Shown here in pieces: positions 55,741 to 61,529 of a stretch of 64,000 nt of DNA (positions within the stretch are counted from its first letter, which is position 1; every line of letters starts with the position of its first letter). A program made the translations under genes and the position numbers. The stretch lies in contig NZ_CP073751.1 in the NCBI RefSeq assembly GCF_020025155.1, positions 1,426,001 to 1,490,000 on the forward strand. The letters run 5' to 3'. Source of the DNA: Halopseudomonas nanhaiensis (GTDB lineage Bacteria > Pseudomonadota > Gammaproteobacteria > Pseudomonadales > Pseudomonadaceae). The notes under the pieces are model-generated. The model searched no databases, had not been told where the DNA came from, and saw nothing but the letters and a program-made list of their open reading frames with translations.

Positions 55741-55939
55741 GTGGCCCTCTGTTTGTTCCGCTGGGTGGCCTGACTGGCGCAGGCGCGGTTGGACAAGTTG
55801 ATGAAATTAACCGCGAGAGTGTAGGCGCGGTTAGCCGGTAATTGCCATGCAAGTGCGGTATTCACCGAATTGATACTTGGTTGAACCAGCGCTGCACTGC
55901 GGTAGTGTTCTGGCGTATCGGCCGGGCGCGGGAGACTTC

Positions 55940-56914
55940 ATGTACAGCATCGATGATATTCAGCTTCAACAATGGACGGTCAGTGGTCTGCGGACCCGCG
56001 TGACCGTGCTGGGGGAAGGCCCGTTGGCGCTGTGCGTCCATGGCTGGCCGGAGTGTTGGTACTCGTGGCGATACCAGATGGTCCTCCTGGCGAATGCAGG
56101 CTACCGCGTCATCGCGCCGGATATGCCAGGTTTCGGGGAAACGCAGGGCTACCCCCGCATCGCCGACTACACCATTGAGCGCACCGGCCGGTTTCTATCC
56201 GATCTGGTTGCCGAAGCAGGTGCTTCCAGGGTTCTGTTGATCGGTCATGACTGGGGCGCGATCAACGCCTGGGGGTTTGCCCTGCAGTATCCGCAGACCG
56301 TTTCGCGCATGGTGGTGATGAGTGTTCCGTTGAAACCACTCGGTGAGCACCCGCCCACCCGGGAGTTGAAAGCGCTGTTTGGAGATCGGTTTTTCTATCA
56401 GCTCTATTTTCAGCAGCCCGGCGTCGCCGAAGCCGAGTTCGATGCGGATCCGGAGGGTATCCTGCGCGCGCTGTTCTGCTCTCCTGATACCCCTCGGGCT
56501 CAACCGCAGCTGGGCAAGGCCATCGCCGAGGGAGGAGGGTGGATAGGTCGGCTGGGCAGGCCACTGGAACAACCCGCGTGGCTCACTGACGAAGCGATTG
56601 CCTATTACGTCAGCACGTATCGTCGTAGCGGCTTCGCCGGTGGCCTCAACTATTACCGCAACATCGATCACAACTGGCAGATCATGCAGCCCCTGGCGAG
56701 CGCCCGGATCGAGTGTCCGGTGCTGTTTCTGTCCGGAGAGAAGGACTATGCGACCCAGCGCGCCACTGTGGAACAGTTGAGCCGGCTGATGGGCGAACGG
56801 ATTCCGGATCTGACCATAAAGGTGCTCGCAGGCAAGGGTCATTGGTTGCAAAGCGAGGCTGTCGAAGCGGTCAACCGAGCCATCGCCGATTTCATCTCGC
56901 AACGTCCGAACTGA
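55940..56914 (+). CDS. Alpha/beta-hydrolase, epoxide-hydrolase type
   Basis: ATG 55940 follows GGGAGACTTC, giving 324 residues. HGWPECWYSW is the oxyanion-side motif and the nucleophile Asp is in LLIGHDWGAINAWGFAL. NYYRNIDHNW and lid tyrosines supply the epoxide-activating Tyr pair, and the catalytic His is in LAGKGHWLQSEAVEAVN. Epoxide hydrolysis to a vicinal diol is the family reaction; dehalogenase activity is a less likely alternative. It is monocistronic and precedes the first polyester hydrolase. Confidence 0.88.
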   Translation: MYSIDDIQLQQWTVSGLRTRVTVLGEGPLALCVHGWPECWYSWRYQMVLLANAGYRVIAPDMPGFGETQGYPRIADYTIERTGRFLSDLVAEAGASRVLLIGHDWGAINAWGFALQYPQTVSRMVVMSVPLKPLGEHPPTRELKALFGDRFFYQLYFQQPGVAEAEFDADPEGILRALFCSPDTPRAQPQLGKAIAEGGGWIGRLGRPLEQPAWLTDEAIAYYVSTYRRSGFAGGLNYYRNIDHNWQIMQPLASARIECPVLFLSGEKDYATQRATVEQLSRLMGERIPDLTIKVLAGKGHWLQSEAVEAVNRAIADFISQRPN

Positions 56915-57017
56915 AAGCTGCGGCTACCGGACTCGCCAATGTCAGTTCGGTATCGGAAAGACTTCATTTCAGAATCAAAGGCTTAGCATCATGTGACCTG
57001 CGTCACGCTGAGCCTTA

Positions 57018-57075
57018 ACCCATATGGGTGAAATTACCCGAACGGCGTTGACCCTCGATCTCACCCCCCTAGACT
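57018..57075 (+). promoter_or_regulatory. Promoter and palindromic operator of polyester hydrolase 1
   Basis: Perfect 12-bp palindrome ACCCATATGGGT at 57018-57029, an 18-bp gap, -35 TTGACC at 57048-57053, a 16-bp spacer and -10 TAGACT at 57070-57075. The same block, with the same spacing and the same 85-nt distance from the -10 to the ATG, precedes the second hydrolase gene. The palindrome is probably bound by an activator or repressor. Confidence 0.72.
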
Positions 57076-57159
57076 CCGACCCGTTGCCCGGCCTGCCGTC
57101 CTGACGGAAGGTGGGCCAAACAACAATTCCAAAAACCAGACGTACAGATCGGAGCTTCA

Positions 57160-58062
57160 ATGAACAACAAGAACATGTCGAAGTCGTTTCTTTCCATGCT
57201 CGCAGCCGGAGCGCTGCTGTTCTCCGCTTCCGCCATGGCCGGCAACCCGACTATTCCACCCGAGGAACAAACCGATGAATTCCAGCGCGGGCCGGATCCA
57301 TCCGTAGCCATGCTGGAAGCCAGCAGCGGGCCGTACTCGGTGCGCACCGAACGTGTCTCTGGCCTGGTCAGTGGCTTCGGTGGCGGCACCATTCATTATC
57401 CCACGGGCACAACCGGAACCATGGCTGCGATCGTGGTCATCCCGGGATATGTCTCGGCCGAGTCGTCGATCGAATGGTGGGGCCCCAAGCTGGCTTCGCA
57501 TGGCTTCGTGGTCATGACGATCGACACCAACACTGGCTTCGATCAGCCGCCGAGCCGGGCTCGGCAGATCAACAATGCGCTGGATTATCTGATTGACGAG
57601 AACAACACCTCGCGCAGCCCGATCAACGGGATGATCGACGTAGATCGTCTCGGCGTGGTTGGCTGGTCGATGGGCGGCGGCGGGACACTGCGCGTGGCTG
57701 AGGAGGGGCGCATCAGCGCGGCCATTCCGCTGGCACCGTGGGATACCACCAACTTCCGGGATGTGCAGGCACCGACGTTGATCTTCGCCTGTGAATCGGA
57801 CATCGTCGCCCCGGTGCGCCAGCATGCTGATCCCTTCTACGATGAGCTGCCTGCCGGTCTGCCCAAAGCGTTTGCCGAGTTGAACAACGGCTCGCATTAC
57901 TGCGCCAATGGCGACAATTCGTACGATGATCAGCTCAGCCGCCTGGGTGTCTCCTGGATGAAGCTGCACCTGGACAAGGATCAGCGCTACGGCCAGTTCA
58001 TTTGCGGACCGAATCACGAGTCGGATTACCGCATTTCCGAATTCCGGAGCAACTGTCCGTAA
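57160..58062 (+). CDS. Polyester (PET) hydrolase, cutinase-like, paralogue 1
   Basis: A 300-residue secreted alpha/beta hydrolase with a signal peptide ([19 protein letters not shown], cleavage near residue 27). The nucleophile is Ser170 in [15 protein letters not shown], with Asp214 (FACESDIV) and His246 (NNGSHYCAN). Trp169 before the Ser is the PETase-type residue (His in type I cutinases). C211-C248 forms the extra active-site disulfide of type II PETases and C282-C299 the C-terminal one. It closely resembles PE-H of Halopseudomonas aestusnigri, a known PET hydrolase, so the likely substrates are polyesters. Tyr97 at the oxyanion-side position replaces the Phe of paralogue 2. Confidence 0.9.
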
Positions 58063-58075
58063 TAGCGGGGGTCGG

Positions 58076-58102
58076 GGCTCGTCCCGCATGGCGGGGTGAG
58101 CC
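58076..58102 (+). terminator. Hairpin after polyester hydrolase 1
   Basis: GGCTC-gt-CCCGC and GCGGG-gt-GAGCC pair around an ATG loop, 14 nt after the stop. There is no T-tract, so termination is uncertain. Confidence 0.45.
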
Positions 58103-58224
58103 TCCCGGTTGGTGGAAGGATTCTCGCCAGAAATCTAAATCAGGAAGATAGAAACAATCGATTTTTCCTATCGGCCGCTTCGCTTGATGATGGCCTCTCC
58201 CAACCTACACAGGAGAGTTCATCG

Positions 58225-58323
58225 ATGCAGCTCATCAAGCGTTTCCTTCAGCGCAGTCAGTCGGGGCAATCCGACAAGTACGCCGACGTCGTTCAACATC
58301 CAAACTTCTGGATGTATCAGTAG
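58225..58323 (+). CDS. Small ORF (32 residues) between the two hydrolases
   Basis: ATG 58225 is preceded by AGGAGAG at good spacing, and the frame ends with TAG at 58323, followed by a terminator-like hairpin. The peptide begins MQLIKRFLQRSQSGQSDKYA and ends VVQHPNFWMYQ: a basic amphipathic start and an aromatic tail. I do not recognise a family. It could be a real small protein or chance coding with a good ribosome site. It has no signal peptide and no cysteine. Confidence 0.45.
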   Translation: MQLIKRFLQRSQSGQSDKYADVVQHPNFWMYQ

Positions 58324-58334
58324 CACCACGGTAT

Positions 58335-58360
58335 GAGGCAACCACCTTCAGGGTTGCCTC
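58335..58360 (+). terminator. Hairpin after the small ORF
   Basis: Perfect 9-bp stem GAGGCAACC / GGTTGCCTC with an 8-nt loop, starting 11 nt after the small ORF. There is no T-tract. Confidence 0.65.
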
Positions 58361-58529
58361 GAACTTGAAACTGCTCAAGTGCCGAGGTAGAGCCTTTGTA
58401 TTCGTATCAAGCGACTTCATCTGGCACTTGTGAAGAGCTTAAGCTATCACCCAAACAGGTTATGATGGTCGGTATATTTGCTTGGGTTTTAACGTTGCAA
58501 GCGTCTGATTTCGAAGGGGTTGTCAGTTA
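58361..58529. other. AT-richer spacer ahead of hydrolase 2
   Basis: This stretch is noticeably richer in A and T than its surroundings. It holds one inverted repeat (CAAGTGCC at 58376-58383 and GGCACTTG at 58423-58430, 39 nt apart) but no gene I can support. The promoter and leader of the second hydrolase follow. Confidence 0.5.
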
Positions 58530-58587
58530 ACCCATACGGGTGAAATTGCATTTTTGGCGTTGACTGTAAAGTTTCTGAACATACACT
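58530..58587 (+). promoter_or_regulatory. Promoter and palindromic operator of polyester hydrolase 2
   Basis: ACCCATACGGGT at 58530-58541 (one base from the perfect palindrome of copy 1), an 18-bp gap, -35 TTGACT at 58560-58565, a 16-bp spacer, -10 TACACT at 58582-58587, and 85 nt from there to the ATG. Every spacing equals that of copy 1; the GTGAAATT after the palindrome and GGCG before the -35 are also shared. Confidence 0.72.
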
Positions 58588-58671
58588 TCGGTAGTCCGGT
58601 ATACGAATGCGTCTCGTCAAGTATCGGTCGGTGAAGTTTCAATAACAATAATGGAAACTCTCGGAGTCAGA

Positions 58672-59580
58672 ATGAACAATAAAACTTTCCACAAGTCGGC
58701 CCTGTCCCTGCTTGCCGCCAGTGCACTGCTGTTTTCCGCTTCAGCCATGTCCAGCAACCCCACGCCACCGCCGCCAACCGATCCGGGTGATGGCAGCTAC
58801 CAGCGTGGCCCGAATCCGACCGTGTCGTATCTCGAGGCCGAGCGTGGTCCGTACAGCGTTCGTACCGAGAACGTGTCGAGCTATGTGAGCGGGTTCGGCG
58901 GCGGTACCATTCACTATCCGACCGGTACTACCGGCACCATGGCGGCAATCGTTGTCATTCCCGGCTTCGTTTCCTCCGAGTCGTCGATCGAGTGGTGGGG
59001 CCCGAAGCTGGCCTCTCACGGTTTCGTGGTCATGACCATCGATACCAACTCCGGCTATGACCAGCCTGCCAGCCGCGCGCGCCAGATCAACGCGGCGCTC
59101 GACTACATGATCGACCGCAACAACACCTCGAGCAGTGCCATCAACGGCATGATCGATGTCAATCGTCTCGGCGTGGTCGGCTGGTCGATGGGCGGTGGCG
59201 GCACACTGCGCGTGGCTGAAGAGGGTCGTCTCAAGGCAGCGATTCCGCTCGCGCCCTGGGATACCACCAGCTTCCGCGACGTTCAGGCTCCGACGCTTAT
59301 CTTTGCCTGTGAGTCCGACACTGTCGCCCCGGTCAGCCAGCATGCGTCGCCGTTCTACAATCAGCTGCCGAGTGGCCTGCCCAAGGCCTTCTTCGAGCTG
59401 AACAACGGCAACCACTACTGCGCCAACGGTGGGAACTCCTACAATGCGACGTTGAGCCGTCTCGGTGTGTCCTGGATGAAGCGCCATCTGGACGAAGACA
59501 CCCGCTACCAGCAGTTCCTCTGCGGCCCGAACCACACCTCGGACTATCGAATCTCCGAGTACCGCGGCAACTGCCAGTAA
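58672..59580 (+). CDS. Polyester (PET) hydrolase, cutinase-like, paralogue 2
   Basis: ATG 58672, with GGAG at the same spacing as in paralogue 1, gives 302 residues; an upstream in-frame ATG at 58651 is less likely. Signal peptide [18 protein letters not shown], then a proline-rich linker ([10 protein letters not shown]). The triad is Ser172 ([15 protein letters not shown]), Asp216 (FACESDTV) and His248 (NNGNHYCAN). Trp171 and both disulfides (C213-C250, C284-C301) are retained. Phe99 replaces Tyr97 of paralogue 1, and the N-terminal linker and surface loops differ. A secreted polyester hydrolase is the expected activity. Confidence 0.9.
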
Positions 59581-59597
59581 TAGCAGTGTGTTAGAGA

Positions 59598-59627
59598 CCC
59601 CGGCCTCGTATGAGGCCGGGGTTTTTT
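59598..59627 (+). terminator. Intrinsic terminator of polyester hydrolase 2
   Basis: Perfect 10-bp stem CCCCGGCCTC / GAGGCCGGGG with a GTAT loop, followed by six Ts, 17 nt after the stop. Confidence 0.93.
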
Positions 59628-59709
59628 ATTGGGTCGGGGAAAGACCGTTTGCACGGTTGCCGGATGGTGTTTTTACAGAAAGGAGGTGAAGCAGTGCCAT
59701 CTGACGTCT

Positions 59710-60342
59710 TCAGCAACGCGGGGCGATGGCAGCTTTGCATATGCGTTCCATCTCGTTCGCCCAGAGGCGTGTTGCCTGCGTGTCCAGTTGCAGCAGCAGG
59801 GCATAGCGCCGGCCGCCCCAGACGGCCAGATGCAATGCTTCTACCGTCTGCGGCGATACCGGGCCAGGCAGGTCAGTGCAGGCGGCGAACACCCGATGCC
59901 AGAGCGCCTTGAATTCTTCATGGGCACGCAGTTGGTGGCGATGCTCTGCCAGGCTGGGTTCAAGCTCCAGCAGCTTGGGGTGAAACCAGGGCATTCCGGT
60001 TCGTTCGACGCCGCATAGCAGCTGCAGCGTCGCGTGCAGGCGCTGCTCCCAGGTGAGCCCCGCCGGCTCGACCGCTGCTTCATCAACCCGCCGGATGGTC
60101 ATTTCGATGCAATGTCGGATGTAGCCCGAGTGCAGCGCCATCTTGCTGGGGAAATACTCATAGAGCGTGCCTACCGCAATGCCGCACTCGACGGCTATCG
60201 CACGGGTTGTGATGCGCTCCCAGCCGTCACGCTGCCAAATCCGAACAAAGGTGTCGAATATCGCCTGCACCGTGGCCTTGGCACGGGCCTGGGATGGCCG
60301 CTTGAGCGGCCTGAGCTTGGCTTCCGTGGGCGGCTTGCGCAT
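59710..60342 (-). CDS. TetR-family regulator
   Basis: I place the start at ATG 60342 (MRKPPTEAKLRPLKRPSQAR), giving 210 residues. The DNA-binding helix-turn-helix is ITTRAIAVECGIAVGTLYEY with FPSKMALHSGYI after it. The ligand-binding part is 140 residues and unrecognised. It is divergent from the DUF2855 gene with an 80-bp shared region, so it probably represses that gene. Confidence 0.88.
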   Translation of the reverse strand: MRKPPTEAKLRPLKRPSQARAKATVQAIFDTFVRIWQRDGWERITTRAIAVECGIAVGTLYEYFPSKMALHSGYIRHCIEMTIRRVDEAAVEPAGLTWEQRLHATLQLLCGVERTGMPWFHPKLLELEPSLAEHRHQLRAHEEFKALWHRVFAACTDLPGPVSPQTVEALHLAVWGGRRYALLLQLDTQATRLWANEMERICKAAIAPRC

Positions 60343-60422
60343 CTCAGCGATAACCGAACCCGGAAGCCCGGGCGATGCGATACAGTCGGTGCACACCTGG
60401 CCTCAGTGACGGAGAAGAACGA

Positions 60423-61529
60423 ATGACTACTGTAACGCAGCTGCAAACCGACAAGTCCGCCCTGCATCACACCCGCATCGTCAGCGCCGAATTGCCGGAG
60501 CTCAAGGCTGGCGAAGCACTGTTGAAGATAACCGATCTGGCTGTGACGACAAACAACATCACCTACGCGGCCTTCGGCGACACGCCGCATCTGCGCTACT
60601 GGAGCTTCTTTCCGACCCATGCAGAGGGCTGGGGCCACATGCCGGCATGGGGTTTTGCCGAAGTGGTCGAGTCCACGGTGAAAGGGGTCGAGAAGGGCGA
60701 GCGTTACTATGGCTACTGGCCCATCGCGACACATCTGATCATGCAGCCGGTGCGGGTCAGCGAGCGCGGTTTCTACGACGGCGCGCCGCATCGCCTGGAA
60801 CTGACTTCTGCGTACAACCAGTATCAGCGCACCACGACCGACGCTGCCTACCGGCCGGAGAACGAACCCTACCAGGCTCTGCTGCGTCCCTTGTTCATCA
60901 CCTCGTTCATGCTGGCGGACTTTCTCGAAGACAACGGCTTCTTCGGCGCCAAACAGATCATTTTCTCAAGCGCCTCCAGCAAGACCGCATACGGTACCGC
61001 GTTCTGCCTGGAAAACCGCGCTGACGTTCGTCTGCTGGGCTGGACGTCGGCAGGTAACCGCGCTTTCGTCGAGTCCCTTGGCTGCTACGCTCAGACCGTG
61101 ACCTACGACGAGCTGGAGTCCCTCGACCCGAACGTGCCCACGCTGTACGTGGACTTCGCCGGCAACAACGATCTGCGTGCCCGCGTGCACCATCATTTCG
61201 GTGAGCAGCTCGTGCATGACTGCTACGCCGGTTCGGCGCAATCGCAGGATCATCTGGACAAGGCCGACAAGAACCTTCCGGGCCCACAGCCGCAGCCGTA
61301 TTTCGCGCCGTATCAGATCAAGAAGCGCAACACCGACTGGGGCCCGGGTGAAGTGACCCGTCGCTTCAACGAGGCTCAGCTGGCCTTTATCGCGCGGGTG
61401 AGCGACTCTGCCAATCCCTGGATGAAGATTAATCAGCACGAGGGCTTCGAGGCGGCGCAGTCGCTGGTGGCCGACCTCTGCGAAGGGCGAGTCGATCCCC
61501 GTGACGGGCATATCGTCACGGTCAGGTAA
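60423..61529 (+). CDS. DUF2855 family protein
   Basis: ATG 60423 has GGAGAAGAACGA upstream. The 368-residue protein begins like an MDR-type dehydrogenase (VTTNNITYAAFGDTPHLRYW) and has a GFFGAKQIIFSSASSKTAYG segment, matching DUF2855, a family related to quinone reductase-like MDR proteins but without zinc ligands. Function is unknown. It is divergent from a TetR gene. Confidence 0.88.
   Translation: MTTVTQLQTDKSALHHTRIVSAELPELKAGEALLKITDLAVTTNNITYAAFGDTPHLRYWSFFPTHAEGWGHMPAWGFAEVVESTVKGVEKGERYYGYWPIATHLIMQPVRVSERGFYDGAPHRLELTSAYNQYQRTTTDAAYRPENEPYQALLRPLFITSFMLADFLEDNGFFGAKQIIFSSASSKTAYGTAFCLENRADVRLLGWTSAGNRAFVESLGCYAQTVTYDELESLDPNVPTLYVDFAGNNDLRARVHHHFGEQLVHDCYAGSAQSQDHLDKADKNLPGPQPQPYFAPYQIKKRNTDWGPGEVTRRFNEAQLAFIARVSDSANPWMKINQHEGFEAAQSLVADLCEGRVDPRDGHIVTVR

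Follow-up and report, generated by a model that had tools for sequence, protein, structure and literature searches.

The window (the whole 64,000-nucleotide stretch of the Halopseudomonas nanhaiensis genome analysed here) carries two neighbouring plus-strand genes, A and B, which are separated by 609 bases and code for hydrolases of the PETase family. Each gene is preceded by an operator-like palindrome and a promoter-like site. The features of the locus, in window coordinates, are as follows:

57016..57031, + strand: palindrome TAACCCATATGGGTGA, operator-like element of A, exact match at G000:C1:1483016-1483031
57048..57075, + strand: sigma-70-like promoter of A, TTGACC-16-TAGACT, directly after the palindrome
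57160-58062, + strand: gene A, predicted type IIa PETase-family polyester hydrolase, intact ORF of 300 aa with a signal-like N-terminus
58447..58462, + strand: second palindrome upstream of B, TCACCCAAACAGGTTA, with 1 mismatch; the B gene of the sister genome G034 is preceded by TCACCCAAATAGGTGA
58528..58543, + strand: palindrome TAACCCATACGGGTGA, operator-like element of B, at G000:C1:1484528-1484543, with the same 16 bases in G034
58560..58587, + strand: sigma-70-like promoter of B, TTGACT-16-TACACT, directly after the palindrome
58672-59580, + strand: gene B, predicted type IIa PETase-family polyester hydrolase, intact ORF of 302 aa with a signal-like N-terminus
59602..59623, + strand: intrinsic-terminator-like hairpin after B, weak by count (1 found against a shuffle mean of 2.3)

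An alternative start of gene B at 58651 would lengthen its ORF by 7 residues, but 58672 is the most likely start, as its ATG is preceded by GGAG and it agrees with the start of A. The two proteins share 240 of 300 aligned residues (80%) and differ at the other 60. The PF12740 'PETase' profile recovers A with 392 bits and B with 406.1 bits, far beyond chance at a cut-off of 28; the cut-off of 520 for the bis(hydroxyethyl) terephthalate hydrolase BdeA (NF051441) is missed by both (300.9 and 334 bits, respectively). Both proteins contain the GWSMGGGG motif, whose G-W-S-M-G box is invariant in all 68 rows of the family, and the catalytic triad is formed by Ser170/Asp214/His246 in A and Ser172/Asp216/His248 in B. 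Two Cys pairs, predicted to form disulfides, are found in each (211/248 and 282/299 in A; 213/250 and 284/301 in B), and both pairs, including the one joining the ACESD and HYC segments, are kept in 67-68 of the 68 rows. Type IIa enzymes are distinguished from type IIb by an aromatic residue, rather than Ser, after the catalytic His. A and B display the signature H-Y-C at this point, and Tyr is likewise found in the PE-H chain 6sbn. The lipase box also differs by type, with GHSMG in type I and GHSQG in the HaloPETase1 group, according to PMC12442448. Judged from their sequences, A and B are type IIa PETases, a known kind of enzyme, and their signal-like N-termini suggest that they are exported. 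An earlier note on this DNA had described two neighbouring secreted-type hydrolases with the hallmarks of type II PETases, namely GWSMGGGG, the ACESD/HYC Cys pair and the C-terminal Cys pair. The intact ORFs, their N-termini and these residues bear this description out, as they do its placing of Tyr97 in A and Phe99 in B, a numbering that already implies the start at 58672.

Among solved structures, the best matches of A and B are 8ait ('Cutinase') and 8ais ('Lipase 1'), which we take to be cutinases of the P. saudimassiliensis group, followed by PE-H (6sbn), Ple628, Ple629 or MG8. PE-H of Halopseudomonas (Pseudomonas) aestusnigri (6sbn/6scd) shares with A and B the family, the GWSMG box, both Cys pairs and the Tyr beside the catalytic His; it differs in having Phe where A has Tyr97, and the window has two tandem genes. 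The likeness to PE-H pointed out in the earlier note is thus supported, the nearest solved chains are of type IIa, and the closest characterised relatives are polyester hydrolases rather than esterases acting on other substrates. The accompanying remark that one such enzyme is known is outdated, as several type IIa enzymes have been characterised. Among the matches listed from a search of about 5.8 billion database proteins, the nearest relatives of B share 91% and 87% identity with it.

A maximum-likelihood tree was computed from 68 rows, after a cut copy of B (L002_3004) had been removed from 69 proteins; the rows exclude PE-H, Ple628/629 and IsPETase, and the incomplete L035 and L042 were left out. 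In this tree A groups with the genes of P. saliphila (L037) and P. profundi (L007) and with both tandem genes of G029 (100/100), B groups with the gene of the sister genome G034 (100/99), and the two clades are sisters (96/92). In G034, B and a small ORF are present, but A is missing from the place between this ORF and the alpha/beta hydrolase gene. The relatives of A are found in another neighbourhood, beside a gene presumably coding for a wax-ester-synthase-like protein. A may have been gained here or lost in G034. The duplication proposed in the earlier note is supported, but it is not a recent one, as A and B fall into separate sister clades. The nucleotide sequences likewise speak against a recent duplication and against gene conversion between the two genes: the third-position identity of sliding windows is 27-73%, without any sharp tract.

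A type IIa gene is present in 36 of the 37 genomes of the genus, H. nanhaiensis included (E 5.8e-122 or better); none was found in G035 (best E 3.6e-19), some of the 37 assemblies being fragmentary. Nine of the 37 genomes have tandem arrays, defined as at least two type IIa genes within 3 kb and counted by hand (G000, G008, G017, G018 with three genes, G019, G023, G026, G029 and G030), so the copy number that the earlier note proposed to check in the genus is not unusual. Named loci with tandems besides the window are L015, L016 (three genes), L017, L023 and L043, and G021 has one type IIa gene.

Several other elements surround the pair. An alpha/beta hydrolase gene lies upstream of A (55877-56914). 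Downstream of B, a TetR gene (59710-60396, - strand) is divergent from a DUF2855 gene, the two together occupying 59710-61529, and this pair adjoins a type IIa gene also in G034 and in H. laoshanensis (L020). Between A and B there is a possible gene of 32 aa (MQLIKRFLQ...NFWMYQ; 58225-58323) with AGGAGA before its ATG; an ORF 58% identical to it is found upstream of B in G034, and weaker matches (E 0.001-0.008) occur in 10 other genomes of the 37. A search of 56800-60000 against Rfam gave no match at the gathering score.

Pairs of type IIa enzymes have been described elsewhere. Marinobacter is presumably the host group of one such pair, Ple628 and Ple629. According to PMC9350882, these are, like A and B, encoded by tandem genes a few hundred bases apart, and share 74% identity; their genes have no intervening ORF, whereas the window has the possible 32-aa ORF, and their regulation is stated by the authors as not known. 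PMC10904013 reports two type IIa hydrolases in one strain, jmPE13 and jmPE14 of Pseudomonas sp. JM16B3. Both act on PET and PBAT; they share 88% identity with each other and 53-61% with other type IIa enzymes. Within Halopseudomonas, H. sabulinigri HyVt376 is the source of the type IIa enzymes HaloPETase5/6, HaloPETase2-4 are type III enzymes like those of a three-gene array of H. nanhaiensis (see below), and the tested enzymes degraded PET (PMC12442448); the words 'tandem', 'operon', 'copies', 'promoter' and 'regulat' are absent from the main text of that paper. Locus L016 of H. sabulinigri HyVt376 contains three type IIa genes in a row.

The earlier note had taken the difference between Tyr97 and Phe99 as a sign of specialisation. 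This argument finds no support in the family alignment, where the position of Tyr97 toggles between Tyr (24 of 68 rows) and Phe (44 of 68). All four nearest relatives of A have Phe, and the Tyr in A thus looks lineage-specific. Among 11 tandem arrays, of which L015 and L105 are near-identical, seven have the same residue in all copies (Phe in L015, L023, L086, L105 and L108; Tyr in L017 and L106) and four differ (the window, L016, L043 and L142). That the two enzymes have different polyesters as substrates or serve different steps, through this residue and other active-site changes, is a possibility that we regard as doubtful, given the family-wide toggling, the residue shared within most arrays and the identical spacing of palindrome and promoter at the two genes. 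It nevertheless draws on the 60 differing positions and on other pairs: Ple628 and Ple629 differ greatly in activity (PMC9350882), and jmPE13 and jmPE14 differ too (PMC10904013). By analogy with these pairs, functional divergence of A and B is possible.

The upstream regions of A and B share a 16-bp palindrome with the consensus T[C/A]ACCC-N4-[A/G]GG[T/C]GA, whose centre lies 24 bp ahead of the -35 box. The layout is the same at both genes: the palindrome, TTGAC starting 24 bp past its centre, and a -10-like hexamer after a further 16 bp. Exactly two promoter-like sites, those of A and B, are found in 56900-59700, a number not above that in shuffles (1.2, sd 1.2); the weight rests on their placing after both palindromes.

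To see how far this element extends we compared 52 type IIa genes taken as members of the genus, among which are the near-identical species pairs L015/L105 and L011/L100. The other 16 rows, of other genera and picked by locus, were set aside, including the MAG row L038, though the tree places it inside the clade and it scores 11. With the motif refined on the same genes on which it is counted, 45 of the 52 genes have a best match to CACCC-N4-GGGTG of 8 or more letters out of 10 as against 9% of dinucleotide shuffles, and the 12-letter consensus is matched at 11 letters or more in 42 of the 52 as against 10 of 238 neighbour genes. Seven of these ten neighbours are divergent genes, whose upstream stretch holds the PETase's own site. 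In 25 of the 52 genes TTGA stands exactly 24 bp after the palindrome centre; there the arms, which were selected for, have 1.77 bits per column, the 52 upstream columns, which were not, have 0.17, and the -35 stretch has 1.67. The remaining 27 genes are without this spacing, so the mode of action may differ among them; 26 of them score at least 7/10 but have no such -35 box, and 12 of these 26 have a TANNNT hexamer beginning 30-31 bp past the centre, so that the site would lie near -43. At L024 no palindrome match worth scoring was found.

Outside the genus, only one of the 16 type IIa genes scores 11 or more (L038), and six Marinobacter type IIa genes score 8-10, i.e. are without the palindrome. 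Marinobacter type IIa genes (L019, L023, L030, L065 and others) share by eye another upstream block, approximately GTGCCAATTCGTGAAAGC, which is possibly the site of a different regulator.

The H. nanhaiensis genome contains three further homologues in a row (C1:2240712-2243828), which are 29-34% identical to B and possess a GHSQG box; by these features they are type III PETases of the HaloPETase1 kind. Their locus (L114, G000:C1:2236500-2248500) brings the PETase family to five members in this genome, and runs of 1-3 type III genes are common in the genus. The palindrome is present upstream of all three, at -123, -123 and -124. Of 41 type III genes, which represent 21 of the 37 genomes, 39 reach a score of 10/12 or more, compared with about 2% of dinucleotide shuffles, and in 36 of the 41 the palindrome lies within -110 to -142 of the start used. 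The type IIa and type III proteins are only about 30% identical, and with so distant a relationship a promoter inherited from a common ancestor would account poorly for the shared element. In two other genera of the family, type III genes are at background level, with 0 of 20 at 11 or more; these 20 were taken from 34 genomes with a match, and some g14 rows show a look-alike below the threshold. Within this sample the strict form of the element is seen in this genus only.

Whole genomes were also searched with several forms of the element. The long pattern of palindrome, spacer and TTGAC, itself derived from the window and its relatives, has 20 matches with at most 1 mismatch, spread over 18 of the 37 genomes, and all 20 lie upstream of a type IIa gene when set against the gene table by hand. 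Allowing up to 3 mismatches raises the number to 59, as against 29 in the reversed control, indicating that the looser matches are mostly chance; by our own count, 24 of the 59 precede type IIa genes. The palindrome as TNACCCNNNNGGGTNA with at most 1 mismatch occurs 105 times in the H. nanhaiensis genome (44 in the control) and 93 times in G034 (33 in the control), whereas TCACCYNNNNRGGTGA without mismatch is found 25 times as against 6 in eight genomes. The pattern TMACCCNNNNRGGYGA yields 17 distinct sites in the H. nanhaiensis genome and one in the reversed-pattern control. Five of the 17 precede the five PETase genes found; the other 12 do not, and several of them lie in coding DNA.

Additional sites were found by looking family by family, some with 1-2 departures from the consensus, and are leads that carry no statistical test. 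They are found a short distance upstream of the gene for an AMP-binding acyl-CoA ligase (L219; L231 in G034), of two PF00135 carboxylesterase lipoproteins (L220 and L223) and of a 485-aa lipoprotein (L221; counterpart L248 in G013) with no confident Pfam match and weak alpha/beta-hydrolase hints, and at the divergent start of acyltransferase and apolipoprotein N-acyltransferase genes (L214 and L226). Other sites, at a pilin-like gene, truB/rpsO, rpoB and lpd, seem unrelated. A perfect TCACCC-N4-GGGTGA stands between 2-hydroxyacid dehydrogenase and pilin-like genes in three genomes (L216, L228 and L245).

We read the palindrome as the putative operator of one ester/polyester-hydrolase regulon. 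It is quite probable, in our estimation, that the locus encodes two secreted type IIa hydrolases with a promoter each and both under one regulator. Ordinary redundancy, in which PETase genes were duplicated and the palindrome was carried along by descent without a regulatory role, would account for the tandem arrays of nine genomes and for the mutual homology of the type IIa promoters, as duplicates copy their promoters. We consider it distinctly improbable, since the same palindrome precedes type III genes, whose products share so little sequence with A and B, and since the sequence on the upstream side of the palindrome is close to random in the 25 aligned genes. The palindrome could instead be a repressor site or an RNA hairpin (attenuator). 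Palindromes also form hairpins, some sites elsewhere are placed between genes such that a transcript hairpin is plausible (L217), and the spacing to the promoter differs in half of the genes. At A and B, however, the palindrome overlaps neither the -35 nor the -10 element and, being upstream of the -35 box, would lie outside the predicted transcript, and we regard a repressor or attenuator role as unlikely, if less so than mere redundancy.

An operator shared by these genes would point to a common transcription factor, and three candidates were considered. The CrbR ACTU motif offers a comparable arrangement: according to PMC5715377, it is a palindrome before acetate genes, just upstream of the promoter, and is needed for activation by a LuxR-family regulator. 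CrbR/ErdR was rejected, as the ACTU sites given there, compared by reading, differ in core and spacing (a core like GACC-N2/3-GTC, as against ACCC-N4-GGGT here). An AraC-family gene divergent from a DUF1302/DUF1329 operon (L297, L298 and L299) has the palindrome between them in G021 and G013; the corresponding intergenic stretch of the H. nanhaiensis genome is without it, so that this gene is a lead only. The TetR gene beside B, kept in G034 and L020, was not seen in about 30 other clustered PETase neighbourhoods and is thus unlikely to be the common regulator. In open-licence PubMed Central papers, judged mostly on titles and the starts of abstracts, we found no description of a shared PETase operator-like element.

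Under the preferred reading of one regulator acting at both genes, a transcription factor bound to the palindrome would recruit RNA polymerase separately at A and at B; it would most likely be an activator, as the palindrome centre would lie near -59. The regulon would include the type IIa and type III PETases and perhaps the surface carboxylesterases and the acyl-CoA ligase, the type III enzymes being made alongside those of type IIa. Once exported, the enzymes would hydrolyse insoluble esters; their targets would be extracellular polyesters, waxes or lipids of natural origin, PET being an incidental substrate, and two copies would raise the dose and perhaps widen the substrate range within the one regulon. 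On balance we lean, with less assurance than for the locus itself, towards a dedicated Halopseudomonas regulon, in which a single factor that recognises TCACCC-N4-RGGYGA would switch on the PETases of both types as well as surface carboxylesterases and fatty-acid activation.

The tandem PETases add two members to a crowded class, and it is the element shared by type IIa and type III genes that is worth following. It makes testable which natural compound or state turns the PETases on, and offers a handle on the regulator as well as a way of finding further hydrolases by promoter rather than by protein similarity. If the reading is true, the site would be a first cis-regulatory key to the natural cues of these PETases.
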